Assembly: GCA_916720015.1 (NCBI GenBank)
Contig: CAKAPZ010000013.1
Location: 1-13,856, forward strand
Direction: 5' to 3'
DNA length: 13,856 bases
Source of the DNA: an uncultured Atopobium sp.
GTDB taxonomy: Bacteria > Actinomycetota > Coriobacteriia > Coriobacteriales > Atopobiaceae
Position 1 is the stretch's first letter. Each line of letters begins with the position of its first letter. The notes under the pieces were generated by a model. It made no database searches. It saw nothing but the letters and a program-made list of their open reading frames with translations, and was not told the origin of the DNA. A program made the translations under genes and the position numbers. Below are positions 6 through 13,856 of the stretch, piece by piece.

Positions 6-94
6 ACTCAGACATGGCGAGAAAAACCGGCAAAACCACTCAGACATGGCGTGCTTTTCCGGCAAATAGTTCAGACATGGCGAGAAAATCAGGC
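6..94. repeat. Intergenic tandem array, core word CAGACATGG (copy A1)
   Basis: Three direct units of 25-26 nt lie at 6-31, 38-63 and 69-94, giving a period of 31-32 nt with 5-6 nt A-rich spacers. Each unit begins with CAGACATGGCG, continues with an A4-5 or T4 run and ends in CCGGC or CAGGC. The first and third units read GAGAAAA after the core word and the middle one reads GTGCTTTT. The same unit order occurs in the copy at 6230-6317, so the array was copied as a block. The window starts only 5 nt before the first unit, so it cannot be seen whether an inverted unit precedes it as in the other copy. The array lies beyond the 3' end of prs. Its function is unknown. Confidence 0.8.
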
Positions 95-253
95 ACACTC
101 CTGTCCGCATTAGGCTCACTCCGGGCTCACACCGCTACCTGGCGAGAAACCCGATCCACTCCCAGCATTTCCGCACAAGAAACCCGGTATCCACACGAAA
201 TGGATACCGGGTAGAAATTACTCGCGACCTGCACGCGCCGTTGACCTGCGGGA
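95..253. repeat. Distal part of composite 3' element behind prs
   Basis: From about 127 to the prs stop codon this stretch is closely similar to 6361-6475 behind purL. Shared blocks include CTGGCGAGAAACCCG (139-153 and 6374-6388), CCACTCCCAGC, TTTCCGCACAAGAAACCCGG, the hairpin at 182-212 and ACCTGC just before the stop codon. The homology runs up to the gene end in both places, so the element abuts the stop codon. The part at 95-126 is much less conserved between the copies. No ORF of note is seen here. Confidence 0.7.
182..212 (-). terminator. Hairpin downstream of prs, likely transcription end
   Basis: A perfect 12-bp inverted repeat, ACCCGGTATCCA and TGGATACCGGGT, flanks a 7-nt loop 42 nt beyond the prs stop codon. 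On the minus strand the stem is followed by TTCTTGTG, a poor T-tract, so it could be a weak intrinsic terminator or a 3'-end stabilising hairpin. The equivalent hairpin behind purL (6416-6446) carries one change that keeps pairing in the minus-strand RNA as U-G but gives C-A in the plus-strand orientation. This supports a role in the minus-strand transcript. Confidence 0.6.
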
Positions 254-1249
254 TTACAGGTTGAAGTCGCCACCGAAGATGTCGGAGACAGGACGGTCGG
301 TGTAGACGGCGTAGATTGCCTCGGCAATCTCGTTTGCAATGGTAATCGTCTTGATCTTGGAGCCTTCCTGGTTTGCTGCTGCACAAGGAATTGCGTCGGT
401 AACTACGCATTCCTCGATAGGAGCGTTGTTGAGGCGCTCGATTGCAGGACCAGAGAAGACGCCGTGGGTAGCGCAGACGTAGATGTCGCCCGCACCCATT
501 TCCTTCAGTTTAACAACGGATGCGCAGAGGGTACCTGCGGTATCAATCATGTCGTCGTTAACGATGCAGGTCTTACCCTTAATGTCGCCGATGATGCCCA
601 TAACAGCACTCTCGTTGTGGCGAGGACGGCTCTTATGTGCAATAGCAAGGCCGCAGTCCAGGTAGTCGGAAAGCTTCTTTGCAGCCTTTGCGCGCCCCAT
701 ATCAGGGGAGACAACAACGGTATTCTCCCAGTCAAATGGCTTGCTCTTAAAGTAATCGCCCAGAAGGTAGAGAGCAGTCAGGTGAGAAACAGGAATGTCA
801 AAGAAGCCCTGGATCTGACCCTGGTGCAGGTCAAGGGTGATAACGCGGTCAACGCCAGCGTTCTCAAGCAAGTTTGCCATCAGACGAGCGGTAATAGGCT
901 CGCGAGCAGCAGCTTTGCGGTCCTGACGAGCATATGCGTAGTGAGGGATAACTACGGTAAAGCTGTTCGCAGATGCGCGCTTTGCAGCGTCAGCAACAAT
1001 CAGCGTTTCCATAACCAGGTCGTTGACGTTGACACCTGCCAAAGACTGAATGAAGAAGACCTCGTCGCCGCGGACAGACTCGTCAAAGCGAGCGTAGATT
1101 TCTCCGTTAGCAAACTTCTCGAGGAGAAGACCTTGTAGCTCTAGGTGAAGAATGTCTGCAACCTTACGAGCCAGTTCAGGGTTACCTGTACCGGTGTAGA
1201 GCTTGATATTTCTAGCAACTAACAGTGGTTCACTCAGGTTCTCGAACAT
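254..1249 (-). CDS. prs: Ribose-phosphate pyrophosphokinase (PRPP synthase)
   Basis: This cytosolic enzyme transfers pyrophosphate from ATP to ribose 5-phosphate, making PRPP for purine, pyrimidine, histidine and NAD synthesis. The protein has 331 residues, slightly longer than the usual 310-320, with an extra N-terminal stretch. Visible motifs are the flexible ATP-binding loop YARQDRK (106-112), the family signature DLHQGQIQGFFDIPV (139-153) and the PRPP-binding loop DDMIDTAGT (232-240). The ATG directly follows the glmU stop codon (TAG then ATG, no gap), and an AGAGGA ribosome-binding site lies inside the glmU end, so the two are probably translationally coupled. A glmU-prs pair is common in Gram-positive genomes. 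A repeat element and hairpin follow the stop codon. Confidence 0.97.
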   Translation of the reverse strand: MFENLSEPLLVARNIKLYTGTGNPELARKVADILHLELQGLLLEKFANGEIYARFDESVRGDEVFFIQSLAGVNVNDLVMETLIVADAAKRASANSFTVVIPHYAYARQDRKAAAREPITARLMANLLENAGVDRVITLDLHQGQIQGFFDIPVSHLTALYLLGDYFKSKPFDWENTVVVSPDMGRAKAAKKLSDYLDCGLAIAHKSRPRHNESAVMGIIGDIKGKTCIVNDDMIDTAGTLCASVVKLKEMGAGDIYVCATHGVFSGPAIERLNNAPIEECVVTDAIPCAAANQEGSKIKTITIANEIAEAIYAVYTDRPVSDIFGGDFNL

Positions 1250-2638
1250 CTAGTCCTCTTTCTCAAGCTTGTGACGCCTCTGGGCGGCGTATCCCTCAAC
1301 AATTTTCTGCTCAGAGCGCTCGAGTGCAAGCGCATCTGCTGGTACATCCTTTGTGATGCACGAACTTGCCCCCACAAGTGCGCCATCACCAATTGAGACA
1401 GGTGCCACCATCATGGTATCGGATCCAACAAAGACGTTGTTGCCAATGTTTGTCTTGAACTTGTGGTAACCGTCGTAATTGCACGTAATTGAACCTGCGC
1501 CAATGTTGACGCCGGAGCCCATGGTTGTGTCACCAATGTAGGAGAGGTGAGGAACCTTGGAGCCCTCGCCGATAGTTGAATTTTTGATTTCAACGTGGGT
1601 GCCTGCCTTGGCGTGAGGCATGAGGTGTGTGCCTGGGCGCAGGTAAGCGCGAGGACCGCAGGTAGCAAAGTCGTCTACCTGTGCGTTGATAGCAACAGTC
1701 TCATCAACAACAGCGTCGTTACCAACAATTGTATCGGTCAGACGAGTGTTAGGGCCTACCACGCAATTCTCGCCAATTGAGGTTTTGCCGTAGAGCATAG
1801 TCTGCGGGAGAACCTCGGTGTCCATACCAAGCGTGACCTCGGGGCCAATCCAGACGGAGGTTGGGTCCAGCATGGTGACGCCCTGGCTCATCCAGTGCTC
1901 GTTGATGCGCTCCTGCATGATGCGGGTGGCAACGGCAAGCTCGGAGCGGGAATTGACGCCCAGCGCCTCTTTGTAGTCGTCAACGTGGACGGCAGCAACA
2001 GGCTCGCCCTGGCTGACGTAAAGGCCCATCATGTCGGTGAGGTAGTACTCGCCCTGCACGTTGTCATTGCCGAGAAGATCAATGTTTGCGGTCAACCTTC
2101 CGCCACAGAAGCAGTACACGCCAACGTTGCATTCACGCTCTTGCTCGCGCTGCTCCGGCGTAGCATCCTTGTGCTCAACAATGGCAGTTACCTGGCCGTT
2201 AGAAGAAATGACGCGACCATATCCGGTTGGATCTGGGGGCGTCATCGTAAGTACGGTACATGCGTTGTGGTGAGCTTTAGTTTCTGCGACAAGGTTGAGA
2301 ATAGACTGTGCGCGCAACAGAGATGCGTCACCGTTGATAACAACAACGGGTCCCTTGAAGCCACCAAGAGCATCCTTTACAACCTTGACGGCATGGCCGG
2401 TGCCAAGACGTTCAGTCTGGGCAACATATTCAAGGTTAGGGAAGCAAGAAAGTGCAGATTTAACCTCGTCAGCGTGGTTACCTACAACCACAATGACGCG
2501 GTCAGCGCCAGCAGTAATTGCGGCGTTGACACTCCACCAAACAATGGGTTTATCTAGTAATTTGTGCACAATCTTAGGATGGTGGGACTTCATGCGCGTT
2601 CCCTCGCCTGCAGCGAGGACAATCGCAGTAAGTGGCAT
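1250..2638 (-). CDS. glmU: Bifunctional UDP-GlcNAc pyrophosphorylase / GlcN-1-P acetyltransferase
   Basis: The enzyme makes UDP-GlcNAc in two steps: its C-terminal domain acetylates glucosamine 1-phosphate and its N-terminal domain couples the product to UTP, feeding peptidoglycan synthesis. The protein has 462 residues, close to the 456 of E. coli. The N-terminal uridylyltransferase part shows LAAGEGTRMKS (8-18), RLGTGHA (77-83) and the metal-binding Asp in INGDASLL (D104). From about residue 250 a left-handed beta-helix of hexapeptide repeats follows, with the acetyltransferase His in VPHLSYIG (H364) and NIGAGSITCNYDG (378-390). The ATG at 2638 is chosen because GGAGG lies 7 nt upstream. 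The reading frame is open further upstream, but that extension runs into the tRNA gene. It is followed without a gap by prs. Confidence 0.97.
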   Translation of the reverse strand: MPLTAIVLAAGEGTRMKSHHPKIVHKLLDKPIVWWSVNAAITAGADRVIVVVGNHADEVKSALSCFPNLEYVAQTERLGTGHAVKVVKDALGGFKGPVVVINGDASLLRAQSILNLVAETKAHHNACTVLTMTPPDPTGYGRVISSNGQVTAIVEHKDATPEQREQERECNVGVYCFCGGRLTANIDLLGNDNVQGEYYLTDMMGLYVSQGEPVAAVHVDDYKEALGVNSRSELAVATRIMQERINEHWMSQGVTMLDPTSVWIGPEVTLGMDTEVLPQTMLYGKTSIGENCVVGPNTRLTDTIVGNDAVVDETVAINAQVDDFATCGPRAYLRPGTHLMPHAKAGTHVEIKNSTIGEGSKVPHLSYIGDTTMGSGVNIGAGSITCNYDGYHKFKTNIGNNVFVGSDTMMVAPVSIGDGALVGASSCITKDVPADALALERSEQKIVEGYAAQRRHKLEKED

Positions 2639-2645
2639 ACGTAAG

Positions 2646-2650
2646 CCTCC
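2646..2650 (-). promoter_or_regulatory. Ribosome binding site fixing the glmU start
   Basis: GGAGG on the minus strand lies 7 nt before the ATG at 2638. It decides against the open extension to 2749, which would overlap tRNA-Gln and lacks similarity to GlmU N-termini. Confidence 0.85.
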
Positions 2651-2707
2651 AAAGTACTTCGTATTACTCGATACGAGTGCGTCCCTACACAAAAGTTGCG
2701 TAAAAAA

Positions 2708-2782
2708 TGGCTGGGGTAGTAGGATTCGAACCCACATTCCAGGCACCAAAAACCCGTGTCCTAACCGTTGGACGATACCCCA
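2708..2782 (-). tRNA. tRNA-Gln (anticodon UUG)
   Basis: The cloverleaf folds fully. The acceptor stem is TGGGGTA (5' side, 2776-2782) paired with TACCCCA (2712-2718), with discriminator G and an encoded CCA at 2708-2710. The anticodon loop is TTTTGGT, giving anticodon TTG and reading CAA. The T-loop is TTCGAAT with stem GTGGG/CCTAC. The U1-A72 closing pair and the overall sequence are typical of bacterial tRNA-Gln. It sits 44 nt after the peptidoglycan-binding gene and 69 nt before glmU, on the same strand. Six T residues follow the CCA directly. I see no convincing promoter in the 44 nt upstream, so it may be processed from a longer transcript. Confidence 0.95.
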
Positions 2783-2826
2783 ATGTAATCACTACGTTGG
2801 TTTTGTCCGCAACCCTATTAAGTGTA

Positions 2827-3756
2827 TCAGCTTAGCGAGGCAAATGCTCCACAAATTGCATCAAGAACAAGAACTGCTAAAGTCTGCGCGTCTGCGGTAG
2901 TAAATGAGCCGTCTACGTTTGTTCCTTCTGGCAGCACAATCTTGATAGGGGAGCCCGTTGCATCAGCAGACTCAATGGCAGTGCGCAGTCTTGCTGGCAG
3001 CGTCTCGTTTTCCTCCATAGAAACAGAGCCAATACCAACCTGTCCGCGGGCGGGCATGCTTGGGGCATAAGCTGTGGTCAGAACCAAAATAGTGGCTGCA
3101 TCAGTAGGGGAGTCAGCGCGATCAATCATGGTCATGCCGCTTGCCTCAGTAGTTGCCTTAGAAAGGTTATAGACGCGTGCGGCTACGTTTCTAGAGATAG
3201 GGTCTTCTCCTGTGATAGCAATGCAGGTAGTCTCAAGCACATTGGCAGCGCGAGCAAAGCCCATAGGACCCTGTGGGTGAGGGCCTTTTGCCTGCTTACC
3301 AGACCAAACGTGACGCAGACGCTCAATGGCGTCGAGGGTATCCTGGAATGCCATACCATCAGCAAGCTCGCCGACGCTTTCCTGGAAGAGCTTAACGGCA
3401 GCCTCGGTGTGAACACCGTAATGGCCATCAACTTTTCCGCACGAGAAACCCAAGATGTTGAGACGCTCTTGCAGCTGACGTACGTCATTGCCGTGGAAGT
3501 TAGGAAGACGAAGGTAGAGGGTTCTGTCTCCTAGCTCATAACCCTCATCGACCATGATTGCCCAGGTAGAGGCATCTACTTCTTCTCCAAGAGAAAGGTC
3601 ATGGTCAAGCCTAAAGCGCGCAACCGCGCGAGCAGTTGACTTGCCAAACGTGTGGCTCTGACGCTCATCGTCTTCGATGGCGTAACCAAGCTTAACGAGG
3701 CGTTCCTGAATGTCTTCAACGGCAGCACCGGTGCTACCAGGAGTAATAGGATCCAT
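2827..3756 (-). CDS. Peptidoglycan-binding protein with two PG_binding_1 domains, cytoplasmic-looking
   Basis: The protein has 309 residues, no signal peptide and no membrane segment. Two peptidoglycan_binding_1-type modules are visible: about 6-70 (PGSTGAAVEDIQERLVKLGY, then a TARAVARF helix) and about 84-148 (GNDVRQLQERLNILGF, then HTEAAVKLFQ). They are followed by a region of about 140 residues (170-309) that I do not recognise with certainty. Two modules plus a C-terminal alpha/beta-looking domain recall mycobacterial CwlM, which has an amidase-type fold and acts in the cytoplasm on MurA. Here the C-terminal region contains no histidine at all, so a zinc amidase activity can be excluded. 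The gene starts 2 nt after the prenyl synthase stop codon, with AAAGG as ribosome-binding site, so the two are co-transcribed. A role in sensing or regulating wall synthesis is an inference. Confidence 0.75.
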   Translation of the reverse strand: MDPITPGSTGAAVEDIQERLVKLGYAIEDDERQSHTFGKSTARAVARFRLDHDLSLGEEVDASTWAIMVDEGYELGDRTLYLRLPNFHGNDVRQLQERLNILGFSCGKVDGHYGVHTEAAVKLFQESVGELADGMAFQDTLDAIERLRHVWSGKQAKGPHPQGPMGFARAANVLETTCIAITGEDPISRNVAARVYNLSKATTEASGMTMIDRADSPTDAATILVLTTAYAPSMPARGQVGIGSVSMEENETLPARLRTAIESADATGSPIKIVLPEGTNVDGSFTTADAQTLAVLVLDAICGAFASLS

Positions 3757-3758
3757 AA

Positions 3759-4826
3759 TTACCTTTCTCGGTTCACAAAGAAGTCTGCCATAGACAAAAG
3801 TGTGTCGCGAGCGTCTTCAGTAAGTATCACGTTTTCAAGCACGTGCTTTGCCTCATCAACTAAGGCAAGAGCGTGCGTGCGGACAAATTTTATCGCATTA
3901 GCGCTTTCCATAAGCTCCACAGCGCGCTGAAGCTTCAAAGTATCGCTCGTATGCGCAGAAAGTATGGAGACAAGCTCTGCTTTTTCTGCCAATCCAAGAT
4001 GTTCGAGCGCGTAGACTACCGCAAGCGTGCGCTTACCCTCAGTGATGTCCGACCTAAAATCTTTACCCTGTACCTGGGCGTTTCCTACCAGGTTGAGAAG
4101 ATCGTCTTGCAGTTGGAAGGCAAGTCCTACCTTGAGGCCAAACTCTTTGAGTGCATCAAGCGTTTTCTGGTCAGCGCCACCAATGAGCGCACCTAGTACC
4201 AGGGGATATGCAGCAGAGTAATAGGCGGTTTTGGAGAGCGCCATAAAAAGGTACTGGTCAGAGGTAATATCCCAGCGCTTATTTTGAGCCCAGCCAAGGT
4301 CAAGCGCCTGACCCTCAAGGGTGTGCTCCTGCATGGCGAGAAGGGCGTCGATAACGCGAATTTTTAGCTGGTCAGAGAGGTGGTCGGCTACGGTAACGCG
4401 TCTGACAACATTGACCAGCGCAGAATCACCAACGTTGATGGCAAGTCCAGTGCCAAGTGTCTTGTAGAGGCACTTCTCGCCACGGCGCAGCTCTGATTTG
4501 TCTGCGATGTCGTCGTGGATAAGGGCTGCCGACTGGAAGTCCTCGATGGCGCAGGCCACAGGCAGAGCGGCTTCTGCTGAGCTGCCGACTGCTTCGGAGC
4601 CCAGGCAGCAGAGGACCGGTCGGACGCGCTTGCCGCCGCCCGCACTGAAGTGAGCGAGTGGCTGGTAGAGGTAGGTGTTCAGGTCCGCGCGGGTGCGGTC
4701 TGAAAGCGCCGCTGCGGGCGCTGCGGGCGTTGCCGCGGGTGCTGCAGGCGTTGACGTGGGAAGTCCGCGCATGATCTCCGCCTCGACGGCAGGGAGCTTT
4801 TGTGTGAGGTAGTCGGCGAAGTTCAC
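3759..4826 (-). CDS. Trans-polyprenyl diphosphate synthase (FPP/GGPP/longer)
   Basis: This class I isoprenyl chain-elongation enzyme condenses IPP with allylic diphosphates, giving precursors of undecaprenyl lipid carriers or quinone side chains. The protein has 355 residues, longer than most. Motifs in order are GKRVRP (65-70), first Asp-rich motif DDIAD (105-109), GQALDL (172-177), KT (199-200), second Asp-rich motif DDLLN (241-245) and GKRTL (264-268). The second motif has Asn where the last Asp is usual. An Ala/Pro-rich segment (about 24-40, TPAAPAATPAAPAAA) inserted near the N-terminus is encoded by a GC-rich internal repeat. It starts with GTG, with AGGA about 7 nt upstream overlapping the galE stop codon. 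The galE gap is 7 nt, so the genes form one operon. Product chain length cannot be told from the sequence. Confidence 0.92.
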   Translation of the reverse strand: MNFADYLTQKLPAVEAEIMRGLPTSTPAAPAATPAAPAAALSDRTRADLNTYLYQPLAHFSAGGGKRVRPVLCCLGSEAVGSSAEAALPVACAIEDFQSAALIHDDIADKSELRRGEKCLYKTLGTGLAINVGDSALVNVVRRVTVADHLSDQLKIRVIDALLAMQEHTLEGQALDLGWAQNKRWDITSDQYLFMALSKTAYYSAAYPLVLGALIGGADQKTLDALKEFGLKVGLAFQLQDDLLNLVGNAQVQGKDFRSDITEGKRTLAVVYALEHLGLAEKAELVSILSAHTSDTLKLQRAVELMESANAIKFVRTHALALVDEAKHVLENVILTEDARDTLLSMADFFVNRER

Positions 4827-4833
4827 GGAAGTC

Positions 4834-5889: not shown

Positions 5890-5920
5890 ATCAATCCTTT
5901 CGTGGACTTATATCGTCATA

Positions 5921-5926
5921 AGTATA
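5921..5926 (-). promoter_or_regulatory. Candidate -10 box of the galE operon
   Basis: TATACT on the minus strand lies 31 nt before the galE ATG, which would give a leader of about 25 nt. I find no good -35 hexamer at 16-18 nt spacing. A second AT-rich candidate, GATATAAG, lies slightly downstream. This is a weak call. Confidence 0.35.
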
Positions 5927-5931
5927 CGGCT

Positions 5932-5980
5932 TTTCCGCGAAACGTTGGGCGTTGCGAGTGCACGGGTTTCTCGCCAGATG
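5932..5980. repeat. Diverged inverted partial copy of the 3' repeat element
   Basis: CGGGTTTCTCGCCAG at 5963-5977 is the exact reverse complement of CTGGCGAGAAACCCG in the elements behind prs and purL. The flank resembles the same element: GAAACGTTGGGCG here corresponds to GAAACGCTGGGAG in the reverse complement of the purL copy. It lies just upstream of galE, in the opposite orientation to the other two copies. Confidence 0.6.
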
Positions 5981-6044
5981 CTGCTGCGGGCGCGCGGGGA
6001 GCGCGCGGGTTTCTCGGCAGGCGGGCCCGCCTTTTGCTGGGTGC
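5981..6044. repeat. GC-rich palindrome cluster upstream of galE
   Basis: GCGCGC, GGGGA and GCGCGC (5990-6006) form an inverted repeat with a 5-nt centre. The perfect 14-nt palindrome AGGCGGGCCCGCCT (6019-6032) follows and is trailed by TTTTGC on the plus strand. Between them TTTCTCGGCAG (6010-6020) is one base away from the TTTCTCGCCAG of the neighbouring repeats. GC content is far above that of the surrounding genes. No coding sequence is seen. The role is unknown. Confidence 0.5.
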
Positions 6045-6162
6045 GCCTGAAAAGTGCAAAGAATCTGTATTTACGGCACAGATTCTTTAACAAAATCAGG
6101 CAAATCCACAGATTCTTTTATGTATTTAGGCAGAAGTTACAGATTCTTTGAAGGAATCAGGC
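6045..6162. repeat. Intergenic tandem array, core word ACAGATTCTTT (array B)
   Basis: One inverted unit (6045-6069) and three direct units (6077-6101, 6107-6131, 6138-6162), each 25 nt, lie at a period of 30-31 nt. The direct units start with ACAGATTCTTT and end in CAGGC or TAGGC. The inverted and first direct copies make a hairpin: AAAGAATCTGT (6058-6068) pairs with ACAGATTCTTT (6078-6088) around a 9-nt loop. The plan is the same as in the array at 6198-6317: a leading inverted unit starting GCCTGAAAA, three direct units, CAGGC ends and AAATC-type spacers. Only the core word differs. No function is known to me. Confidence 0.8.
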
Positions 6163-6197
6163 GCATTCTAACGGGGTAGCTGTCCCAATTTTTGCGA
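6163..6197. other. Spacer between arrays B and A2
   Basis: These 35 nt separate the two arrays. They hold GGGG, TAGCTGT and CCC followed by AATTTTTG on the plus strand, a weak hairpin with T-run. No plus-strand gene lies upstream to be terminated, so I assign no function. Confidence 0.3.
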
Positions 6198-6317
6198 GCC
6201 TGAAAACTGCACCATGTCTGAGTAAAACAACTCAGACATGGTGAGAAAAACCGGCAAATAGCTCAGATATGGTGTGCTTTTCAGGCAAATCGTTCAGACT
6301 TGGCGAGAAAATCAGGC
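6198..6317. repeat. Intergenic tandem array, core word CAGACATGG (copy A2) with inverted first unit
   Basis: One inverted 26-nt unit (6198-6223) is followed by three direct 26-nt units (6230-6255, 6261-6286, 6292-6317) at a period of exactly 31 nt. The inverted and first direct units form a strong hairpin: ACCATGTCTGAGT at 6211-6223 pairs with ACTCAGACATGGT at 6230-6242 around AAAACA. Unit order (GAGAAAAA, GTGCTTTT, GAGAAAAT) matches copy A1 at 6-94. Period and architecture match array B next to it. Spacers are only 5-6 nt. Confidence 0.8.
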
Positions 6318-6475
6318 TCGTTCCAGACGCATTCCAAGTTCGTCCCGAGCTCATCCCAGCTCGCGCCGCTCACCTGGCGAGAAACCCGTCCACTCCCAGC
6401 GTTTCCGCACAAGAAACCCGGCATCCACACGAAATGGATACCGGGTAGAAATCGCTTGCAACCTGCGAACGCGCC
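6318..6475. repeat. Distal part of composite 3' element behind purL
   Basis: The region from about 6361 to the purL stop codon matches 127-253 behind prs, including CTGGCGAGAAACCCG, CCACTCCCAGC, the hairpin and ACCTGC near the stop codon. The part at 6318-6360 is poorly conserved between the two copies and holds nothing I recognise. Array A2 plus this segment form a mobile-looking intergenic element of about 245 bp without coding capacity. Confidence 0.7.
6416..6446 (-). terminator. Hairpin downstream of purL, likely transcription end
   Basis: ACCCGGCATCCA and TGGATACCGGGT form a 12-bp stem with a 7-nt loop, 30 nt after the purL stop codon. The one difference from the prs copy gives a U-G pair in the minus-strand RNA and a C-A mismatch in the plus reading. 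The T-tract is poor (TTCTTGTG). It is the only terminator-like structure between purL and galE on this strand. Confidence 0.6.
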
Positions 6476-9400
6476 TTACTTGAAGTACTCTACGCCACCC
6501 TCAATCAGAGGCTGGAACTGGTCGCCAACAGTGAGCTCGGGGATGTTCTTGTAGAGGCCCGCGCCGGAGCGCTCCGTGTGACCCATCTTGCCCAGGACGC
6601 GGCCATCGGGGCTGGTAATGCCCTCGATAGCCAGGACGGAGCCGTTAGGGTTAACGGAGAAGTCCATGCTCGGAACACCTGTTGCGTCAACGTACTGTGT
6701 TGCAATCTGGCCGTTGGCCTTGAGCGTTTCAAGCAGCTCGTCGGAGGCAACAAAGCGACCTTCTCCGTGGCTGATTGCGATGGTGTGGATGTCGCCAAGT
6801 GCGCACTTGGAGAGCCATGGCGACATTGTGGATGCAACACTGGTGCGAACAAGCTGGCTTTGGTGACGGCCGATGGTGTTAAACGTCAGCGTTGGGCAGG
6901 TGTCGTCCATGGGTCGGATATCGCCGTAAGGAACAAGACCCAGCTTGATGAGTGCCTGGAAGCCATTGCAGATGCCCAGCATAAGGCCATCGCGCTGCTG
7001 CAGAAGCTCGCGAACAGCCTCGGTTACCTGAGGTGCGCGGAAGAGTGCGCAGATAAACTTAGCTGATCCGTCTGGCTCGTCTCCGCCGGAGAAGCCACCT
7101 GGAATCATGACAATCTGACTCTTCTTGATGGACTCTGCCAGCGTATTTGCAGACTCAACAATGTCCTGAGGTGTCAGGTTGTTAATGACCAGTGTAGTTG
7201 GGTCAGCGCCTGCACGCTCAAAGGCACGCGTAACGTCGTACTCGCAGTTGTTACCTGGGAATACGGGGATGATGACGCGTGGGCGAGCAGGTGCGATAAG
7301 GGCTGGACCAGCATAGGAGTGTCGTGTGGATGCACCGTCGAAGCTGATTTTCTCCACAGCCTCGTCGGAGCCTCCGCGGTAGGGGAAGACCTCCTCAAGT
7401 GGACGCTCCCATGCTTCCTGAAGCTCGGAGAGGTCGATCTTCTCGCCACACGCGCTGAAAGCGTACTCGGACGTGGTGACGCCCAGAGGAGCCACGCATA
7501 CGCCGTCGACGTCGTCAACGGATACGCCGTCTGCCAGCTCAACGATGAAGGCACCGTAGGTTGGCGAGAAGAGCGCGTCGGCAGAAATCTCTGGGACCAG
7601 CTCAACGCCCAGCTTGTTGCCCAGACAGCTCTTGAAAAGAGCCTCGGCCACGCCGCCGTAACCTGGTGTGGTAATGGCAAGCGCGCTCTTGGACTGGACA
7701 AGGGTACTGATCAGCTTGTATGCGGTGAGCAGGGACTCGTTGTCGGGGAGAAGGCCGCTCTCGTCGTAGGATGGAACAATGGAGATGAGCCTATGACCTG
7801 CGCCCTTGAACTCGTTAGAGACAATCTTGTCCACCTTGGTAAGGCCGGTGGCAAACGAAACCAGTGTTGGCGGAACGTCCAGGTCCTCAAAGGTGCCGGA
7901 CATGGAGTCCTTACCGCCGACAGCTGCAAGACCAAGGTTGACCTGGGCCATCAGTGCGCCGAGAAGTGCTGAGGCTGGCTTGCCCCAACGGTTAGGATTC
8001 TGACCAAGCTTCTCGAAGTACTCCTGGAAGGTGAGGTAGAGGTCCTGGTACTTAAAGCCGGTAGCAACCAGCTTGGAGACGGACTCAACAACAGAGAGGT
8101 ATGCGCCGCGGAACTGGTCGGCCTCCATGAGGTAGGGGTTAAAGCCCCAGGCCATGCCCGAGACGGTGTTGGTCTGACCCATAACAGGAAGCTTTGCCAC
8201 CATAGAGAGGGTTGGGGTCAGCTGGCGAGCGCCACCGAATGGCATAAGGACAGTACCTGCGCCAATGGTAGAGTCAAAGCGCTCGGAGAGACCCTTGTTA
8301 GATGCAACGTTTAGATCGCGTACCAGCGAGTGGAGTTTCTCGCCAAGAGTTGTGCCTGCCCAGGTGCGCTGGTAAGCAAGAGGCTTGGCCAGGCGCACGG
8401 TAATTGATTTAGGAGCGCCGTTTGAGGCGAGAAATGCGCGGCTGATGTTGACAATCTTCTGTCCGCGCCAGCGCATGACCAGGCGAGGATCCTCGGTGAC
8501 GGTAGCCACGATGGTTGCCTCGAGGTTTTCTTCGCGGGCGTATGCACAGAACTGCTCGACGTCTTTTGCCTCAAGTGCTACAGCCATGCGCTCCTGAGAC
8601 TCGGAGATTGCCAGCTCAGTGCCGTCAAGGCCGTCGTACTTTTTAGGAACAGCGTCCAGGTTGACGTCAAGGCCGTCGGCAAGCTCGCCAATAGCAACAG
8701 AAACGCCGCCCGCGCCAAAGTCATTGCAGCGTTTAATGAGCTTGCAGGCGTCTTCACGGCGGAAGAGGCGCTGAAGCTTGCGCTCAACAGGAGCATTGCC
8801 CTTCTGAACCTCGGCACCGTCGCGCTCAATGGAGCCAGCATCGTGTGCCTTGGAAGAGCCGGTTGCGCCGCCAATGCCGTCGCGACCAGTGCGGCCGCCG
8901 AGAAGAACGATGATGTCGCCATCTTCTGGGCGCTCACGGCGAACGTGGCTTTGAGGAGTTGCGCCTACAACGGCACCAATCTCCATGCGTTTTGCAACGT
9001 AACCTGGGTGGTAGAGCTCAGAAACCTGGCCCGTAGCAAGGCCAATCTGGTTGCCGTAGCTGGAATAACCTGCTGCTGCCGTACGCACGATGGTGCGCTG
9101 GGGAAGCTTTCCAGGAAGTGTCTGGGAAACAGGAACGGTTGGGTCTGCAGCGCCCGTGACGCGCATTGCCTGGTAGACATAGCTGCGGCCAGAAAGAGGG
9201 TCGCGGATAGCGCCACCGATGCAGGTAGCTGCGCCACCAAATGGCTCAATCTCGGTTGGATGGTTGTGAGTCTCGTTCTTGAAGAGGAAGAGCCAGTCTT
9301 CATCTGTACCGTCAACGTCTACCTTGACTTTTACGGTACAGGCGTTGATTTCTTCTGACTCATCAAGATTGGTGAGGACGCCCTTCTCGCGAAGGTACTT

Positions 9401-10231
9401 TGCACCAATAGTTGCCATGTCCCAAAGAGAGACGGCACGATCTTCTCGCCCAAGTTCTTTGCGCATGGAGAGGTACTTCTCAAACGCAGCCTTTACCAGG
9501 TCATCATCAATCTGCACGCCGGTAATTCCGGTATTAAAGGTGGTGTGGCGGCAGTGGTCTGACCAGTAGGTATCAATGACGCGAATCTCGGTGATGGTAG
9601 GATCGCGCTGCTCTGTGGTGAAGTACTGCTGGCAGAAGGTGAGGTCGGCCAGGTCCATAGCAAGGCCGTGAGAAGCAATGAACTCCTTGAGGCCGTCCTG
9701 GTCAAGGGCGTTAAAGCCCTCAAGAACCTCTACGTCCGCAGGCTCTGGAATGGAAATCTTGAGGGTCTCGGGCAGCTCAAGGGAAGCCTCGCGAGCCTCA
9801 ACGGGGTTAATCAGGTAATTCTTGATGGCAGCAACGTCTGCCTCTGTAAGGTTTCCGGTTAGCACGTAAAGGCGAGCAGAGCGAACAAGAGGTCGCTCGC
9901 CTTGGCTGATGAGCTGCACACACTCTGCAGCCGAGTCTGCACGCTGGTCAAACTGGCCAGGTAAAAACTCAACAGCAAACGTATGAACAGCCGCACCTTC
10001 AGAAGAAAACTCTGGCATGGTACGGCTGGCAAGATCGGACTGTGGCTCTGAAAAAACGGTGGGTATGCAGGACTCAAAGAGTTCCTCTGAAATTCCCTCA
10101 ACATCGTAGCGGTTAAGCAGGTCAATGCGTTGTAACTCGGTAATACCAAGAAGGTCTTTCACTTCTTTGAGCAGGGCTTTTGCCTCGCCCTCGAAACCAG
10201 ATTTTCTTTGGACGTAGACGCGCAGGACCAT
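6476..10231 (-). CDS. purL: Phosphoribosylformylglycinamidine synthase, single chain with fused glutaminase
   Basis: This cytosolic enzyme converts FGAR, ATP and glutamine to FGAM in step 4 of purine synthesis. The protein has 1251 residues, near the 1295 of the E. coli single-chain form, but its N-terminus (MVLRVYVQRKSGF) is of the type found in clostridia and streptococci. An N-terminal PurS-like part is followed by the signature TYWSDHCRHTTF (221-232), two AIR-synthase-type halves and a class I glutaminase domain from about residue 990, with PGNNCEYD, IPGGFSGGDE, the nucleophile C1088 in GICNGFQ and the His/Glu pair H1218/E1220 in GHTER. No separate purQ or purS is needed. The start is the ATG at 10231 with AAAGGTGG just upstream. 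An in-frame TTG at 10246 would place that site inside the gene. It is transcribed alone, with a candidate promoter upstream and a hairpin behind. Confidence 0.96.
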   Translation of the reverse strand: MVLRVYVQRKSGFEGEAKALLKEVKDLLGITELQRIDLLNRYDVEGISEELFESCIPTVFSEPQSDLASRTMPEFSSEGAAVHTFAVEFLPGQFDQRADSAAECVQLISQGERPLVRSARLYVLTGNLTEADVAAIKNYLINPVEAREASLELPETLKISIPEPADVEVLEGFNALDQDGLKEFIASHGLAMDLADLTFCQQYFTTEQRDPTITEIRVIDTYWSDHCRHTTFNTGITGVQIDDDLVKAAFEKYLSMRKELGREDRAVSLWDMATIGAKYLREKGVLTNLDESEEINACTVKVKVDVDGTDEDWLFLFKNETHNHPTEIEPFGGAATCIGGAIRDPLSGRSYVYQAMRVTGAADPTVPVSQTLPGKLPQRTIVRTAAAGYSSYGNQIGLATGQVSELYHPGYVAKRMEIGAVVGATPQSHVRRERPEDGDIIVLLGGRTGRDGIGGATGSSKAHDAGSIERDGAEVQKGNAPVERKLQRLFRREDACKLIKRCNDFGAGGVSVAIGELADGLDVNLDAVPKKYDGLDGTELAISESQERMAVALEAKDVEQFCAYAREENLEATIVATVTEDPRLVMRWRGQKIVNISRAFLASNGAPKSITVRLAKPLAYQRTWAGTTLGEKLHSLVRDLNVASNKGLSERFDSTIGAGTVLMPFGGARQLTPTLSMVAKLPVMGQTNTVSGMAWGFNPYLMEADQFRGAYLSVVESVSKLVATGFKYQDLYLTFQEYFEKLGQNPNRWGKPASALLGALMAQVNLGLAAVGGKDSMSGTFEDLDVPPTLVSFATGLTKVDKIVSNEFKGAGHRLISIVPSYDESGLLPDNESLLTAYKLISTLVQSKSALAITTPGYGGVAEALFKSCLGNKLGVELVPEISADALFSPTYGAFIVELADGVSVDDVDGVCVAPLGVTTSEYAFSACGEKIDLSELQEAWERPLEEVFPYRGGSDEAVEKISFDGASTRHSYAGPALIAPARPRVIIPVFPGNNCEYDVTRAFERAGADPTTLVINNLTPQDIVESANTLAESIKKSQIVMIPGGFSGGDEPDGSAKFICALFRAPQVTEAVRELLQQRDGLMLGICNGFQALIKLGLVPYGDIRPMDDTCPTLTFNTIGRHQSQLVRTSVASTMSPWLSKCALGDIHTIAISHGEGRFVASDELLETLKANGQIATQYVDATGVPSMDFSVNPNGSVLAIEGITSPDGRVLGKMGHTERSGAGLYKNIPELTVGDQFQPLIEGGVEYFK

Positions 10232-10275
10232 AGGGCCACCTTTCAATGCAAGCCTTGAACGCTTTTACTGGCTTT

Positions 10276-10281
10276 ATTGTA
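10276..10281 (-). promoter_or_regulatory. Candidate -10 box of purL
   Basis: TACAAT on the minus strand, one mismatch from TATAAT, would give a leader of roughly 38 nt. No clear TTGACA-like -35 is visible at 16-18 nt. The inverted repeat GCCAA, A, TTGGC at 10295-10305 sits where RNA polymerase would bind and might be an operator. No guanine-riboswitch pattern is seen in the leader. Confidence 0.4.
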
Positions 10282-10369
10282 CGTTACTTAGGTGGCCAAA
10301 TTGGCGGTTGTCGAGAAAAGAAAAACGGGTTGTAACAGAGCGTTAAAAATACAAATTTTTTAGTTAAAA

Positions 10370-10456
10370 GTTTTTACGCCAGCATGATTTGCGCCGGCAA
10401 GTGTGCCCGCAAGTTCATGCCGGCAAGTTTTACGTCAGCACGTTTTACGCCAGCAC
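10370..10456. repeat. Six imperfect tandem repeats of 12-16 nt across the ecfT stop codon
   Basis: On the plus strand the units begin at 10370, 10386, 10401, 10413, 10427 and 10442. The last two, GTTTTACGTCAGCAC and GTTTTACGCCAGCAC, differ by one base, and the others vary around G-TTT-ACGCC(A/G)GCA. The right-most unit contains the last three codons (Val-Leu-Ala) and the stop codon of ecfT, so the array grew out of, or into, the gene end. The array is followed leftwards by an AT-rich stretch (10338-10369) that lacks a convincing terminator. Confidence 0.75.
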
Positions 10457-11239
10457 AAAGACAAGGGCGATAAAACAAACCGTGATGCCCAAGGCAATTA
10501 CCTCGCGAGCACCAAAGGTTGGTTGATGCCAACGTGTGCGAGAAGCCCCTGCTACATAGTGGCGAGCATCAAGTGCCTTGGAAAGGTTGTTAGCGTGCCT
10601 GAGTGAGCTTGCTAAAAGCGCCACCACAATGGAGAAGGTTGCGCGAAGTCTTTTAGGAAGCGAGCCTGAAGCAACGTCTCCTGCGCGAGCGGTTTGGGCC
10701 TCGGAAATAGATACGGCGTCGCCTGCAAGTGTTGGAATAAAGCGCAGCATAAGCGAGAAAATCATGGCAATTTCTTTACCGGGAAGGCCAATTTTTGAGA
10801 GCGGTGCGCAAGCTGCTTCAAAGGCATTGCCCAGATCAGTCTGAGTGGTGGTAAGCAGAAGCAGTGCACCCATCAAAATCGCAGCTAAAATGCGCACAGG
10901 GTAGAGAAAAGCACTCCATGCTCCCACATCAGTGATGGTAAAGATAGACCAGGAAACAAGCACAGTTCCTTCTCGCGTAAGCAACAGGTTAAAGAGAGAA
11001 AGGAAGATGAGCAGCCAGGCAAGTGGGATGATTGATACAAGCACTTGTTTGACGGGAATTTTTGCCAGAGCTAGCAGGCAAAGTGCGCCGACTACCAGCA
11101 GCGCAAGCTGTGGTGCCGTGCGGATAAAAAACGTTGTGAGCATCAAAAGAAGCGCCGCCAGGCATTTAACGTTGGGATTAAGCCTGTGAATGGGCGAGTC
11201 TGCGCGGTAATACTGGCCGACGGAAATCTTAAGCGCCAT
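10445..11239 (-). CDS. ecfT: ECF transporter transmembrane (T) component
   Basis: This integral membrane coupling protein of an energy-coupling-factor importer links ATP hydrolysis in the EcfA domains to the S component. The protein has 264 residues. Hydrophobic helices lie at about 25-40, 44-60, 66-88, 107-132 and 242-264, with a long cytoplasmic coupling region between. The two conserved Arg motifs are recognisable as AQTARAG (181-187) and ALDARHY (222-228). The family usually has ARG, so the second motif's Gly is replaced by His here. The ATG at 11239 is chosen for the excellent AAGGAGGT about 5 nt upstream. The gene overlaps the end of ecfA by 11 nt, which implies coupled translation. It is the last gene of the riboflavin uptake operon. 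Confidence 0.9.
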   Translation of the reverse strand: MALKISVGQYYRADSPIHRLNPNVKCLAALLLMLTTFFIRTAPQLALLVVGALCLLALAKIPVKQVLVSIIPLAWLLIFLSLFNLLLTREGTVLVSWSIFTITDVGAWSAFLYPVRILAAILMGALLLLTTTQTDLGNAFEAACAPLSKIGLPGKEIAMIFSLMLRFIPTLAGDAVSISEAQTARAGDVASGSLPKRLRATFSIVVALLASSLRHANNLSKALDARHYVAGASRTRWHQPTFGAREVIALGITVCFIALVFVLA

Positions 11240-13100
11240 AACGACCTCCTTGTGTGAGGTCGCTGGTTTGCGCGTCGCCAGAGTTGGTCGGCAACGCAGC
11301 AACTACCGCGTCTACCAGCTCAGACAGGGTCAAAGGTTCTCCTAGGTTGATTCCCGTAGTGCGGGACAGACGCTGCGCCCACGCTAGTGCATGAGGAATA
11401 CCCAGGCCAAGGTCCTGGAATTCTGTCTCTGAGAAATGAGTAAATGTTTGATAAGGCGTGCCAGAAAACACCAGGTCACCCTCATGGAGCACGATAATCT
11501 GGTCAGTTTCTGCCGCATCCTCCATCGAGTGTGTGAGCTCAATAACGGTGCAGCCATCTTCAAGAACGGCGTTGATAATTTTTCTGAGCTCAGAGCAATA
11601 ATGAGGATCAAGTCCGCTGGTAGGCTCATCGAGGACAAGCACCTTTGGCTGCATGGCAATAACGCCTGCAAGTGCGCACAGTCTCTGCTGACCACCGGAA
11701 AGCTCAAAAGGGGATGCATCTGCCTTGTGGGAAAGTCCGACAAGTTTCAGAGCAGTATCTACAGCGCTTGCTACATCGCAGGCAGAAAGACCAAGGTTAG
11801 TGGGGCCAAACGCCACGTCTTCGGCAACTGTTTGTGCAAAAAGCTGGCGCTCTGGTCGCTGCATGACGTAACCAACAATACCGTGAAGTTTTCTGCGGTT
11901 TTGCTTCTGTCGAGTATCCAGTCCAGCCACGCAGAGGATTCCGGAATCAGGCGTATCAAGTGCGCAAATCAAGCGCGCTAGGGTGGACTTGCCGGAACCA
12001 GTGGAGCCGATAACGGCAACATGCGAGCCTTTTTGCACGTCAACCGAGATGTTTTTGAGCACAGGCTTCTGGTACGAGAACGTCACGTCGCGCACGGAAA
12101 CCGCTGCTGACTCGGACGTGCCGCCGGCCGCGCTGCGACCTGCAGCCGCGTCGTCGCAACCTGCAGTCGCCGCGTCGTTCGCACTTCTCGCCGCTGTGGC
12201 GAGAAGCCCCGTCAGCTCGCTGAGCACGCGCTCAGCCGAAGGGGATTTGCACACGACAACTCCTCGGTTGTTGAACGCGTGGGCCACCTGATAGGCAAAT
12301 GGCTCCTCAAGATGCAGACATTCAACCAGTTCATGCTGCTCAAAGAGCGCTTCAGGCGTTCCCTCAAATGCAACGCGACCGTTGTCCAAGGCAATCACGT
12401 GATCAGCAGAAACCACTTCGTCCATGAAATGCGTTACGTGAACAATAGTCTTTCCAGCTGCACGGAGTTTCTCGACAAGGCCCATAACGTTATTTCTATG
12501 TACAACGTCAAGAGCTGCGGAAGGTTCGTCAAGAATCAGAATTTGCGGCTTCATGACCAGCGCGCCCGAGATTGCCACGCGCTGCTGTTGGCCGCCCGAG
12601 AGCATCTGCGGATTTTCTGACGCAAACTCGGTGAGAGTGCCAAGTTTAATCTGCTGTTCTACCAGTGGTGTTATCTGGTCACTGGGCACCTGAAGGTTCT
12701 CCAGACCAAAGGCAATATCGTCTGCGACCACGCTACAGATAATCTGATCTTCAGGATTCTGAAAGACCAAGCCTAGCTGCGGACGAATGGTTTTGTACGC
12801 CTCAAAGTCAACCTGGCCATCGTTGACAACGGTGGTTCCCAAAAAGGTAACGGTGCCCTCGTCAGGCGCGGTAAGGCCAGAGAGAATCGATGCCACGGTG
12901 GACTTACCCGATCCGTTTGCACCCACAATACAGGTACGTTTACTTGCAGGAACAGAGAACGAGACATGATCGAGGGCAACTACGCCCTTTGCGTGCACAA
13001 AGGTCACGTCCGAAAGCGTTGCAGCTACAGGGAGGTCCTGAGTTTGTGCGGCGCTTTCAGACGTGTGTGTATCTAGGGAGTTGTCCAGCAGACTACTCAC
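11229..13100 (-). CDS. ECF transporter ATPase, two EcfA domains fused in one chain
   Basis: The protein hydrolyses ATP to drive the ECF importer and does the job of the separate EcfA and EcfA' proteins in one chain of 623 residues. Domain 1 has Walker A GANGSGKST (60-68), Q-loop Q114, LSGGQQ (167-172), Walker B ILILDEP (187-193) and H224. Domain 2 has GSTGSGKST (365-373), Q414, LSGGQQ (467-472), VLVLDEP (487-493) and H524. All catalytic residues are present in both, so both sites could be active. An Ala/Gly-rich linker (about 294-334) joins them and its DNA is GC-rich. The start is uncertain. GTG at 13100 overlaps the ribU stop codon by 8 nt, which suits coupling, while TTG at 13118 would give 629 residues; neither has a clear ribosome-binding site. 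It lies between ribU and ecfT. Confidence 0.93.
   Translation of the reverse strand: MSSLLDNSLDTHTSESAAQTQDLPVAATLSDVTFVHAKGVVALDHVSFSVPASKRTCIVGANGSGKSTVASILSGLTAPDEGTVTFLGTTVVNDGQVDFEAYKTIRPQLGLVFQNPEDQIICSVVADDIAFGLENLQVPSDQITPLVEQQIKLGTLTEFASENPQMLSGGQQQRVAISGALVMKPQILILDEPSAALDVVHRNNVMGLVEKLRAAGKTIVHVTHFMDEVVSADHVIALDNGRVAFEGTPEALFEQHELVECLHLEEPFAYQVAHAFNNRGVVVCKSPSAERVLSELTGLLATAARSANDAATAGCDDAAAGRSAAGGTSESAAVSVRDVTFSYQKPVLKNISVDVQKGSHVAVIGSTGSGKSTLARLICALDTPDSGILCVAGLDTRQKQNRRKLHGIVGYVMQRPERQLFAQTVAEDVAFGPTNLGLSACDVASAVDTALKLVGLSHKADASPFELSGGQQRLCALAGVIAMQPKVLVLDEPTSGLDPHYCSELRKIINAVLEDGCTVIELTHSMEDAAETDQIIVLHEGDLVFSGTPYQTFTHFSETEFQDLGLGIPHALAWAQRLSRTTGINLGEPLTLSELVDAVVAALPTNSGDAQTSDLTQGGRYGA
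11244..11251 (-). promoter_or_regulatory. Strong ribosome binding site of ecfT inside the ecfA end
   Basis: AAGGAGGT lies within the last codons before the ecfA stop region and ends 4 nt before the ecfT ATG. It is the strongest Shine-Dalgarno match in the operon and fixes the start against the open extension to 11302. Confidence 0.85.
12184..12206. repeat. Inverted TGGCGAGAA-type pair in the EcfA linker
   Basis: CTTCTCGCC (12184-12192), a 5-nt loop GCTGT and GGCGAGAAG (12198-12206) form a perfect 9-bp inverted repeat inside the coding sequence of the inter-domain linker (residues around Leu-Leu-Ala-Thr-Ala-Ala-Arg). It is built from two opposed copies of the octamer GGCGAGAA that recurs throughout the window. 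Confidence 0.7.
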
Positions 13101-13680
13101 CGTTTTTGATGCTCTCAAAAAGTGAGGTAGCCGAGCGCATAATCACAACAAAGATAATGCTGTTGATAGCAACCTTTACCACGTTGAAGGGGAGAAGAGC
13201 AGGGACAATCAGTCCGCTTACTGCCTCCACGCTCATGCCGGTGTAGATTGGGGTAACTACAAGGTTGCCCAGAATGCATGCGACAACGCTGACAACACTG
13301 CCCACAATGAGGGCAAGTACCAGCTGCTTGATCTTCTCGGAACGGTTATACACAATCAGCGAGACAGGCAAAACGTAGGTAAGCGTTGCCAGGATTGCCA
13401 TGATGGTGCCGTAAATTCCAGACTCCGTGGTGAGGTGCAGAAGGTAGGGAAGCACCGAGACGATCGCTCCTGCAGCAGGGCCAAAAGCTACGCCTGCAAG
13501 CAGGGCAAAGACGCCCGATGGATCGTACTTCAAAAACGTCACACCTGGAATCAGGGGGAACTGAAGCACCATGGTGCTGATTGCAGCAGCTGCACAAAGC
13601 ATGGCGAGAATAGCAATTCTCTTGGTAGACCAGCCGTTAGAAGATGCGGTTGTTGCGTGGGTTGAGTGGGATGAAGCCAT
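13093..13680 (-). CDS. ribU: Riboflavin ECF transporter, substrate-binding S component
   Basis: This membrane protein captures riboflavin (possibly FMN or roseoflavin) and delivers it through the EcfA-EcfT module. The protein has 195 residues, typical of S components, with about six hydrophobic helices between 21 and 185. A Ser/Thr/His-rich N-terminal tail of about 18 residues precedes them. The RibU hallmark FPLIPGVTFLKYDPSG (41-56) is followed by FALLAGVAFGPAAGAIV (58-74). The ATG at 13680 is chosen because GGAG lies 6 nt upstream at 13687-13690. In-frame ATGs further upstream lie within the riboswitch. Identity as a riboflavin carrier is supported twice: by the motif and by the FMN riboswitch in the leader. 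It is the first gene of the operon ribU, ecfA-ecfA' fusion, ecfT. Confidence 0.94.
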   Translation of the reverse strand: MASSHSTHATTASSNGWSTKRIAILAMLCAAAAISTMVLQFPLIPGVTFLKYDPSGVFALLAGVAFGPAAGAIVSVLPYLLHLTTESGIYGTIMAILATLTYVLPVSLIVYNRSEKIKQLVLALIVGSVVSVVACILGNLVVTPIYTGMSVEAVSGLIVPALLPFNVVKVAINSIIFVVIMRSATSLFESIKNGE

Positions 13681-13686
13681 AAAAGT

Positions 13687-13810
13687 CTCCGTTTCTGACA
13701 TCCGGACTGTACCGTTGGTCCTGGACTTTAACCAGGTTAACCGCATTTTGCGGGTCGCGGACTTGATGGCTTATAGAGCTGGGTTGTTACAAACCCTGAA
13801 GCTCGGCCAC
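13687..13810 (-). ncRNA. FMN riboswitch (RFN element) in the ribU leader
   Basis: The 3' half is close to the RFN consensus: ACGGTACAGTCCGGATG at 13699-13715, preceded by the hairpins CCTGG/CCAGG (13720-13736) and CCGC/GCGG (13741-13754), and AGTCCGCGA further upstream. The 5' half keeps CTTCAGGG and the stem GGGTT/AACCC but is shorter and more diverged than usual, lacking an obvious ACCGGCGGT block. The ribU Shine-Dalgarno GGAG lies at the very 3' edge, and CGG of it could pair with CCG at 13804-13806 beside the closing helix. FMN binding would then hide the ribosome site (inference). No terminator hairpin stands between it and the ATG, which also favours translational control. Confidence 0.88.
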
Positions 13811-13856
13811 CTTACCACCAGTAGGTAATTGCAACCATTTCTGAAACATATCGATA
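13811..13856 (-). promoter_or_regulatory. Region upstream of the riboswitch
   Basis: The remaining 46 nt should hold or border the operon promoter. TTGCAA is present at about 13829-13834, but no matching -10 box is seen at 17 nt. A small inverted repeat, TTACC and GGTAA around 7 nt (13813-13829), is visible. No firm call is possible because the window ends here. Confidence 0.2.

Follow-up and report, generated by a model that had tools for sequence, protein, structure and literature searches.

The window, by which we mean the whole analysed stretch of 13,856 nucleotides from an uncultured Atopobium sp., contains 14 exact copies of the 9-mer TGGCGAGAA; this word belongs to a motif, (TGG)CGAGAA-R-N-N-C (R, purine; N, any base), that occurs genome-wide. 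We consider that the word probably forms the core of a self tag, akin to an uptake sequence, in the Atopobiaceae, with (TGG)CGAGAA-R-N-N-C as its consensus. The original prediction, made from the letters of the window, had likened the word either to the DNA uptake sequences (DUS) of Neisseria and the uptake signal sequences (USS) of Pasteurellaceae or to Chi-like and chromosome-architecture words, and of these two the first came out of the tests with the most support. The motif shows most of the genomic hallmarks of DUS and USS that were examined, namely a short non-palindromic word present in hundreds to thousands of copies, an excess beyond codon usage, inverted pairs, rarity in acquired DNA (two regions), and dialects with a shared core. 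Judged by these genomic traits, it is a probable, not a proven, member of the class.

The motif in the window and in Lancefieldella parvula

All 14 copies of TGGCGAGAA lie at the positions and on the strands originally given, 9 on the plus strand and 5 on the minus strand, and no 9-mer is commoner in the window; 200 dinucleotide shuffles of the window gave a mean of 0.16 copies and a maximum of 2. The word GGCGAGAA occurs 17 times. As had been claimed, 8 of the copies are coding (glmU, 1; polyprenyl synthase, 2; purL, 3; fused EcfA, 1; energy-coupling factor [ECF] S component, 1), these gene identities being backed by family libraries, and synonymous shuffling of the nine called genes would leave on average 0.9 copies in coding sequence (at most 4 in any of 500 shuffles). 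The over-representation of the 9-mer therefore stands, but the 9-mer is not the true unit, since TGGCGAGAARNNC is matched by 12 of the 14, the other two (1767 and 13602) having T where the motif has R. The motif CGAGAARNNC occurs 25 times in the window, 18 times within called genes and 12 times preceded by TGG, and 12 of the 14 reported copies of TGGCGAGAA are among these 25 sites. The sites and the two partial matches are listed below, arrays 1 and 2 being the intergenic repeat arrays at 1-100 and 6050-6320 of the window.

15..27, plus: TGGCGAGAARNNC site, intergenic, within array 1
78..90, plus: TGGCGAGAARNNC site, intergenic, within array 1
140..152, plus: TGGCGAGAARNNC site, intergenic, downstream of prs
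4334..4346, plus: TGGCGAGAARNNC site, polyprenyl synthase gene, opposite to gene
4470..4482, minus: TGGCGAGAARNNC site, polyprenyl synthase gene
5964..5976, minus: TGGCGAGAARNNC site, intergenic, upstream of galE
6301..6313, plus: TGGCGAGAARNNC site, intergenic, within array 2
6375..6387, plus: TGGCGAGAARNNC site, intergenic, downstream of purL
7436..7448, minus: TGGCGAGAARNNC site, purL
7562..7574, plus: TGGCGAGAARNNC site, purL, opposite to gene
8333..8345, minus: TGGCGAGAARNNC site, purL
12197..12209, plus: TGGCGAGAARNNC site, fused EcfA gene, opposite to gene
1767..1775, minus: TGGCGAGAA, partial match (T for R after AA), glmU
13602..13610, plus: TGGCGAGAA, partial match (T for R after AA), ECF S component gene
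2071..2080, plus: CGAGAARNNC, flank TGC, glmU
3442..3451, plus: CGAGAARNNC, flank GCA, peptidoglycan-binding protein gene
6007..6016, minus: CGAGAARNNC, flank TGC, intergenic
7960..7969, plus: CGAGAARNNC, flank CGC, purL
8428..8437, plus: CGAGAARNNC, flank AGG, purL
8899..8908, plus: CGAGAARNNC, flank CGC, purL
9380..9389, minus: CGAGAARNNC, flank TCG, purL
9439..9448, minus: CGAGAARNNC, flank GGG, purL
10539..10548, plus: CGAGAARNNC, flank GTG, CbiQ-type ECF T gene
10754..10763, plus: CGAGAARNNC, flank AAG, CbiQ-type ECF T gene
12181..12190, minus: CGAGAARNNC, flank CGG, fused EcfA gene, immediately left of the opposite site at 12197
12465..12474, minus: CGAGAARNNC, flank TGT, fused EcfA gene
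13330..13339, minus: CGAGAARNNC, flank TTC, ECF S component gene

The name ribU, originally given to the gene of the ECF S component, is backed by a flavin mononucleotide (FMN) riboswitch upstream of that gene (13686-13852, minus strand), which supports a riboflavin transporter. A tRNA gene (2711-2782, minus strand) overlaps an open reading frame with a TTG start (1250-2749), and the start of glmU was called at 2638.

Genome-scale tests used nearby genomes in place of the window's own assembly, mainly G024, the genome of Lancefieldella (Atopobium) parvula DSM 20469 (one contig, 1,543,805 bp); genes of the comparison genomes were called by a simple purpose-made caller, not by a standard program. 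Lancefieldella parvula is the present name of Atopobium parvulum. The window aligns with this genome over 13.2 kb at 90.3% identity and so probably derives from another Lancefieldella species. The available text of the genome report for A. parvulum DSM 20469 gives a size of 1,543,805 bp (PMC3035223). In G001, which belongs to the same genus and is the nearest genome in the comparison set (1.6 Mb), there are 249 + 250 copies of TGGCGAGAA compared to 16 + 25 of the reversed word.

CGAGAARNNC is found 1,482 times in the 1.54 Mb of L. parvula (0.96 per kb; 742 and 740 on the two strands), compared to 229 expected under a Markov model of order 4. When the core is permuted and the tail kept, the best of the 59 other words reaches 291 copies, and the median of all 60 is 100. 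TGGCGAGAA has the top z score against synonymous shuffles (277 compared to 37.9; 8 shuffles) of all 9-mers found 25 or more times in coding sequence. The 18 single changes of CGAGAA occur at 0.2 to 3.3 times the second-order Markov expectation, all nine single changes of TGG at 2.3 to 16 times, and TGGCGAGAA itself at about 25 times; 61% of the CGAGAA hexamers carry the tail R-N-N-C.

In coding sequence, L. parvula has 1,204 copies of CGAGAARNNC compared to 181.4 by synonymous shuffling (maximum of 20 shuffles, 207), which preserves protein and codon counts, not codon pairs. The three frame classes hold 109, 18, and 555 copies on the same strand as the gene (8, 3, and 75 expected) and 211, 122, and 189 on the opposite strand (62, 29, and 7 expected), so that all six classes are in excess and the earlier statement that codon preference is insufficient is borne out. 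Coding totals also exceeded the shuffles in G001 (327 compared to 53), G003 (132 compared to 20), G085 (224 compared to 76), 20 kb of G030 (31 compared to 8), and the window (18 compared to 3), the excess in these five lying in the total and not in every single frame class. Codon usage as the cause is rejected on the synonymous shuffles, and the word survived the proposed check against a codon-aware background and shared amino-acid motifs, as run in the nearby genomes.

Conservation, scarcity in acquired DNA, and inverted pairs

Sites present in L. parvula were compared with a sample of G001 (332 kb aligned, 89.2% identity). CGAGAARNNC was intact at 280 of 311 sites (90%), compared to 804 of 1,540 (52%) for the permuted-core words, and TGGCGAGAARNNC at 68 of 69; between the window and L. 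parvula, 14 of 14 motif sites were intact compared to 38 of 61 for permuted words. Conditioning on presence in L. parvula inflates these proportions, a bias that the permuted words share. We then considered codons that retain both their amino acid and their first two bases, taking the expectation from third positions of the same base and degeneracy elsewhere. Synonymous third positions inside the motif were unchanged in 378 of 387 cases on the same strand (75.7% expected) and in 254 of 266 on the opposite strand (71.3% expected), and those flanking the motif were near background (75.4% compared to 73.9%). Synonymous positions within motif sites are thus almost frozen.

The two largest intersite gaps in L. 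parvula lie in a type I restriction island (223.7-241.6 kb), where 17.2 sites are expected and there is none, and in a prophage region (630-665.5 kb, limits set by the analyst) with 9 sites compared to 34.1 expected, which carries genes for an integrase, terminase, portal, capsid, tail tape measure, and endolysin. The called genes of the island and the prophage hold 0 and 5 sites, respectively, where codon shuffling gives means of 0.8 and 1.8. The six largest gaps comprise one in the island, two in the prophage region, one run of N (gap 6, a masked 5-kb stretch that was dropped), and two others. These last two, at 475054-485971 and 1411517-1421188, have a low GC content (0.35 and 0.39), and their proteins look secreted or surface-bound by eye. 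Phage contigs from IMG/VR, representing 5 loci of which one is the L. parvula prophage, show a low density of 0.14 to 0.54 sites per kb, which was not used as proof because the hosts of these contigs are unknown.

Neighbouring sites at most 45 bp apart in L. parvula are arranged 43 times as '+-', 17 as '-+', 9 as '++', and 4 as '--', and all 11 pairs of TGGCGAGAA closer than 60 bp are '+-'. Of 25 intergenic '+-' pairs, 24 have a predicted folding energy below -10 kcal/mol and 11 carry a T-rich tail. The pair lies between convergent genes in 11 of the 25 cases, compared to 105 of 830 among all gaps longer than 30 bp. By predicted folding, these intergenic '+-' pairs form hairpins that are putatively terminator-like. 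Kingsford et al. report such a pair configuration and bias for the uptake words of Neisseria, and more weakly in Pasteurellaceae, in the portion of their paper available to us (PMC1852404). One convergent inverted pair of TGGCGAGAA (780484-780530) is some 200 bp distant from the match to dprA (780732).

Distribution across genomes and competence genes

The family f1 of our comparison set, which we take to be the Atopobiaceae, shows enrichment of TGGCGAGAA in every genome of three genera, g1 (5 of 5; 295-499 copies), g33 (31 of 31; 104-346), and g34 (8 of 8; 262-299), and also in g27 and g19, and less so in g2. Outside the family most genomes have fewer than 60 copies and a few have 61-87, and four genomes of g93 in family f7 (G237, G292, G310, and G332) have 44-139; shared ancestry, transfer, and convergence are the candidate explanations for the word in g93. 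Strong enrichment in CGAGAARNNC was defined by two thresholds, a density of 0.7 per kb or more and a ratio of 3.5 or more to the reversed word. By hand count, 16 of the 35 sampled genera of the family have at least one such genome (g1, g2, g5, g8, g13, g16, g19, g23, g24, g26, g27, g28, g31, g33, g34, and g35), and among sampled genomes outside the family only G237 reaches both thresholds. Copy numbers include 4,221 in the 2.2 Mb of G106 and 1,603 in the 1.0 Mb of G030. At control level are G018 (g10), G031-G033 (g17), G051-G052 (g25), and nearly G005 (g3), and two further genomes of g17 stand at 2 to 2.7 times the control. Outside the family CGAGAARNNC is often 2-4 times as frequent as its reversal, in a few cases slightly more, at no more than 0.57 per kb (by eye); the reversed word is for this reason too weak a control, and the permuted-core and codon-shuffle nulls were used. 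Among ten Coriobacteriia and Bifidobacterium loci counted, the contig L097, which bears the title uncultured Collinsella, carries the motif 23 times over 13.1 kb (1.75 per kb) and is possibly a mislabelled relative of the Atopobiaceae.

The 5′ flank was examined in samples of G001, G003, G085, G030, and G021. Among the plus-strand matches listed, TGG precedes 2 of 100 in G021 and 0 of 50 in G030 (by eye), CGG-like flanks are preferred at the sites of G085, and genera g16, g13, g24, g26, and g28 have a strong core and few copies of TGGCGAGAA. A shared core with differing 5′ flanks looks, by analogy, like the dialects of DUS, although these genomes are also unlike in base composition.

L. parvula has dprA, comEA with HHH_3 and SLBB domains, and comEC as an open frame of 813 codons. 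It also has a single Tad-type locus comprising TadE, T2SSF, T2SSE, a MinD/ParA-like protein, and a SAF-domain protein. A 63-residue protein in this locus resembles a Flp pilin by eye and matched no Pfam family. Micrococcus luteus, also an actinobacterium, has comEA and comEC but no comG cluster, and its transformation requires Flp pili, according to the excerpted study (PMC6370729). The com and tad genes permit an uptake hypothesis and do not prove it.

Weighing of explanations and comparison with known systems

We favour the explanation that the motif marks self DNA for uptake. A surface DNA receptor, for which ComEA or part of the Tad/Flp-type pilus is the likeliest candidate, would prefer DNA that bears the motif, and this DNA would cross ComEC in single-stranded form and recombine with DprA and RecA. 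Since tagged alleles would be imported and returned to the chromosome by recombination more often, molecular drive would multiply the copies on either strand, within genes and outside them, wherever protein function allows; some convergent pairs may have been reused as terminator-like hairpins. With somewhat less confidence, we lean towards a fuller account in which the Atopobiaceae have independently evolved a third system of uptake sequences, which would be the first in the Gram-positive Actinomycetota and would be read by a Tad/Flp-type component or ComEA and not by a minor type IV pilin, with genus dialects around CGAGAARNNC, absent in some genera and present in g93 of f7.

Several observations weigh against an uptake tag. 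Among the genomes searched, enriched or not, ComEC was found in 42 of 43, the T2SSE ATPase in all 43, and DprA in all of the 21 examined for it, so that the machinery fails to predict the word; competence genes were rejected as a discriminator, and the comparison with com and pilus genes suggested in the original prediction yielded their presence in L. parvula and no separation of enriched from other genomes. The region of the Tad-type locus (1156000-1169000 in L. parvula) holds 5 sites compared to 12.5 expected. Density in L. parvula is barely lower in coding than in noncoding DNA (0.94 compared to 1.05 per kb), and the correlation of site density with gene conservation was not significant (Spearman -0.13, P = 0.065, 210 genes). 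The relatively even spacing of USS, a descriptive trait and not part of the definition, was not found in L. parvula, where gaps are exponential (coefficient of variation 1.10). The restriction island and the prophage region were examined because they were gaps, which makes their scarcity a test after the fact, and other gaps in L. parvula have no explanation as newcomers. In the sample of G003 (13 stretches) CGAGAARNNC is tilted to the leading strand (87 leading and 53 lagging, hand sum). Finally, 3-4 nucleotides are essential in DUS and USS according to the available part of PMC5031613, fewer than make up the strict core here (6 bp and a spaced C).

The alternative that survives best, although we judge it unlikely, is an intracellular word for chromosome architecture or repair, bound as CGAGAARNNC by a nucleoid-associated protein, an SMC loader, or a repair system and kept in place by selection. 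The conserved synonymous positions and the density of about 1 per kb also fit this explanation, as does the failure of com genes to discriminate enriched genomes. It is opposed by the lack of polarity in L. parvula, by the seemingly high cost of a strict non-palindromic site at 1 per kb in coding DNA, and by the scarcity in the prophage and restriction island together with the hairpin pairs, both of them features described for uptake words in the accessible parts of two studies (PMC7811141, PMC1852404).

A highly iterated word linked to a methyltransferase is improbable. HIP1 of cyanobacteria (highly iterated palindrome 1) exemplifies a different class of words that are dense, over-represented, and strict at their centre, as described in the excerpted source (PMC4390886), and the Atopobiaceae motif resembles it in these respects. 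HIP1 is, however, palindromic and tied to orphan methyltransferases, whereas our motif is not palindromic and none of the three methyltransferase families tested is universal in enriched genomes: PF01555 is absent in 5 of 5 Lancefieldella genomes, PF02384 in G001, which has more copies than the other Lancefieldella genomes, and PF00145 in G024 to G027.

Chi sites and the FtsK-orienting polar sequences (KOPS) have leading-strand polarity. Polarity was measured in L. parvula, with origin and terminus placed by GC skew, and in the G003 sample. In L. parvula 758 sites are leading and 724 lagging although the leading strand carries 957 of the 1,222 called genes, which speaks against Chi and KOPS; these were rejected for this genome, and a Chi-like or polar architecture word, the second suggestion of the original prediction, is very improbable overall. 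The proposed check of strand relative to origin and terminus thus showed no polarity in L. parvula and some in G003. The G003 tilt counts in favour of a polar word, but most G003 genes tilt to the same strand as the motif. An apparent all-plus run of TGGCGAGAA in G003 was not confirmed by DNA counts (18 plus and 9 minus in the 13 stretches), and the milder tilt of the wider motif stays. Chi sites are themselves over-represented short words in the available text of PMC4390886, and the uptake words of Neisseria and Haemophilus are described as having no orientation bias in that of Bakkali (PMC1939737).

Least probable of all is a codon-pair or amino-acid preference (in-frame Glu-Lys) or descent from the intergenic arrays: the commonest frame class (555 of 1,204) does read GAG AAR and the shuffles do not preserve codon pairs, but the opposite-strand classes are in excess too, intergenic density is at least equal to coding density, and only 3 of the 25 window sites fall within array units. 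The arrays consist of imperfect intergenic units of about 31 bp that begin with TCAGACATGG or ACAGATTCTTT and end near TCAGGCAAAT, and in L. parvula they occur at about 58254, 200061, 396776, and 1350194. This genome has 26 matches to ACAGATTCTTT, and CGAGAA was found in none of the 14 repeat contexts listed among them. The suggestion that the arrays are the source of the sites is contradicted by these counts in the window and by the 1,204 of 1,482 L. parvula copies that lie in called genes; the arrays are a separate repeat family and not a likely source of the motif. An inverted unit precedes at 6058 and 6212 of the window and in loci L034 and L035, and would form a long hairpin.

If the motif is a self-DNA uptake tag, such tags would extend to a new branch of the bacterial tree, and an unrelated third case in a Gram-positive group would mean that they evolve repeatedly and without an outer membrane. 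Natural competence would be predicted for the Atopobiaceae, motif-bearing donor DNA would offer a handle for genetic tools, and molecular drive could be tested against selection by comparing many related species. Among the papers listed by our literature search, with most subscription papers and all preprints outside its reach, none deals with an uptake word in the Atopobiaceae, and none of those listed for natural transformation in this group is a transformation study. A scan of 569 genomes for spaced pentamer pairs includes neither Atopobium nor CGAGAA in the available main text (PMC5217627, supplements outside).

Pasteurellaceae and Neisseriaceae are both Gram-negative. They are the families described with self-DNA uptake tags in the accessible portions of the literature (PMC5031613, PMC7811141, PMC12616744). 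With about one copy per 1,000 bases, the putative tag of Lancefieldella and a number of relatives resembles those of Neisseria and Haemophilus. L. parvula, with its comEA, comEC, and Tad-type locus, is comparable to M. luteus, and the excerpted study of M. luteus mentions no uptake sequence (PMC6370729). The DUS of Neisseriaceae differs from the Atopobiaceae motif in its unrelated sequence, its Gram-negative host, and its receptor, the minor type IV pilin ComP; ours, a putative uptake word, is found in an actinobacterial family with a Tad/Flp-type locus. Compared to the USS of Pasteurellaceae, the sequence is different (AAGTGCGGT or ACAAGCGGT as against CGAGAARNNC), the sites are not relatively evenly spread as those of USS are described to be, and the AT preference outside the core is weak. 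Yet the motif is like USS, as far as the available text of these reports goes, in having an inner core with a more tolerant flank and hundreds to thousands of copies, in lying partly in (here predicted) terminators, in the two sequence types within a family, and in being less frequent in newly acquired segments (PMC5031613, PMC12616744, PMC7811141).

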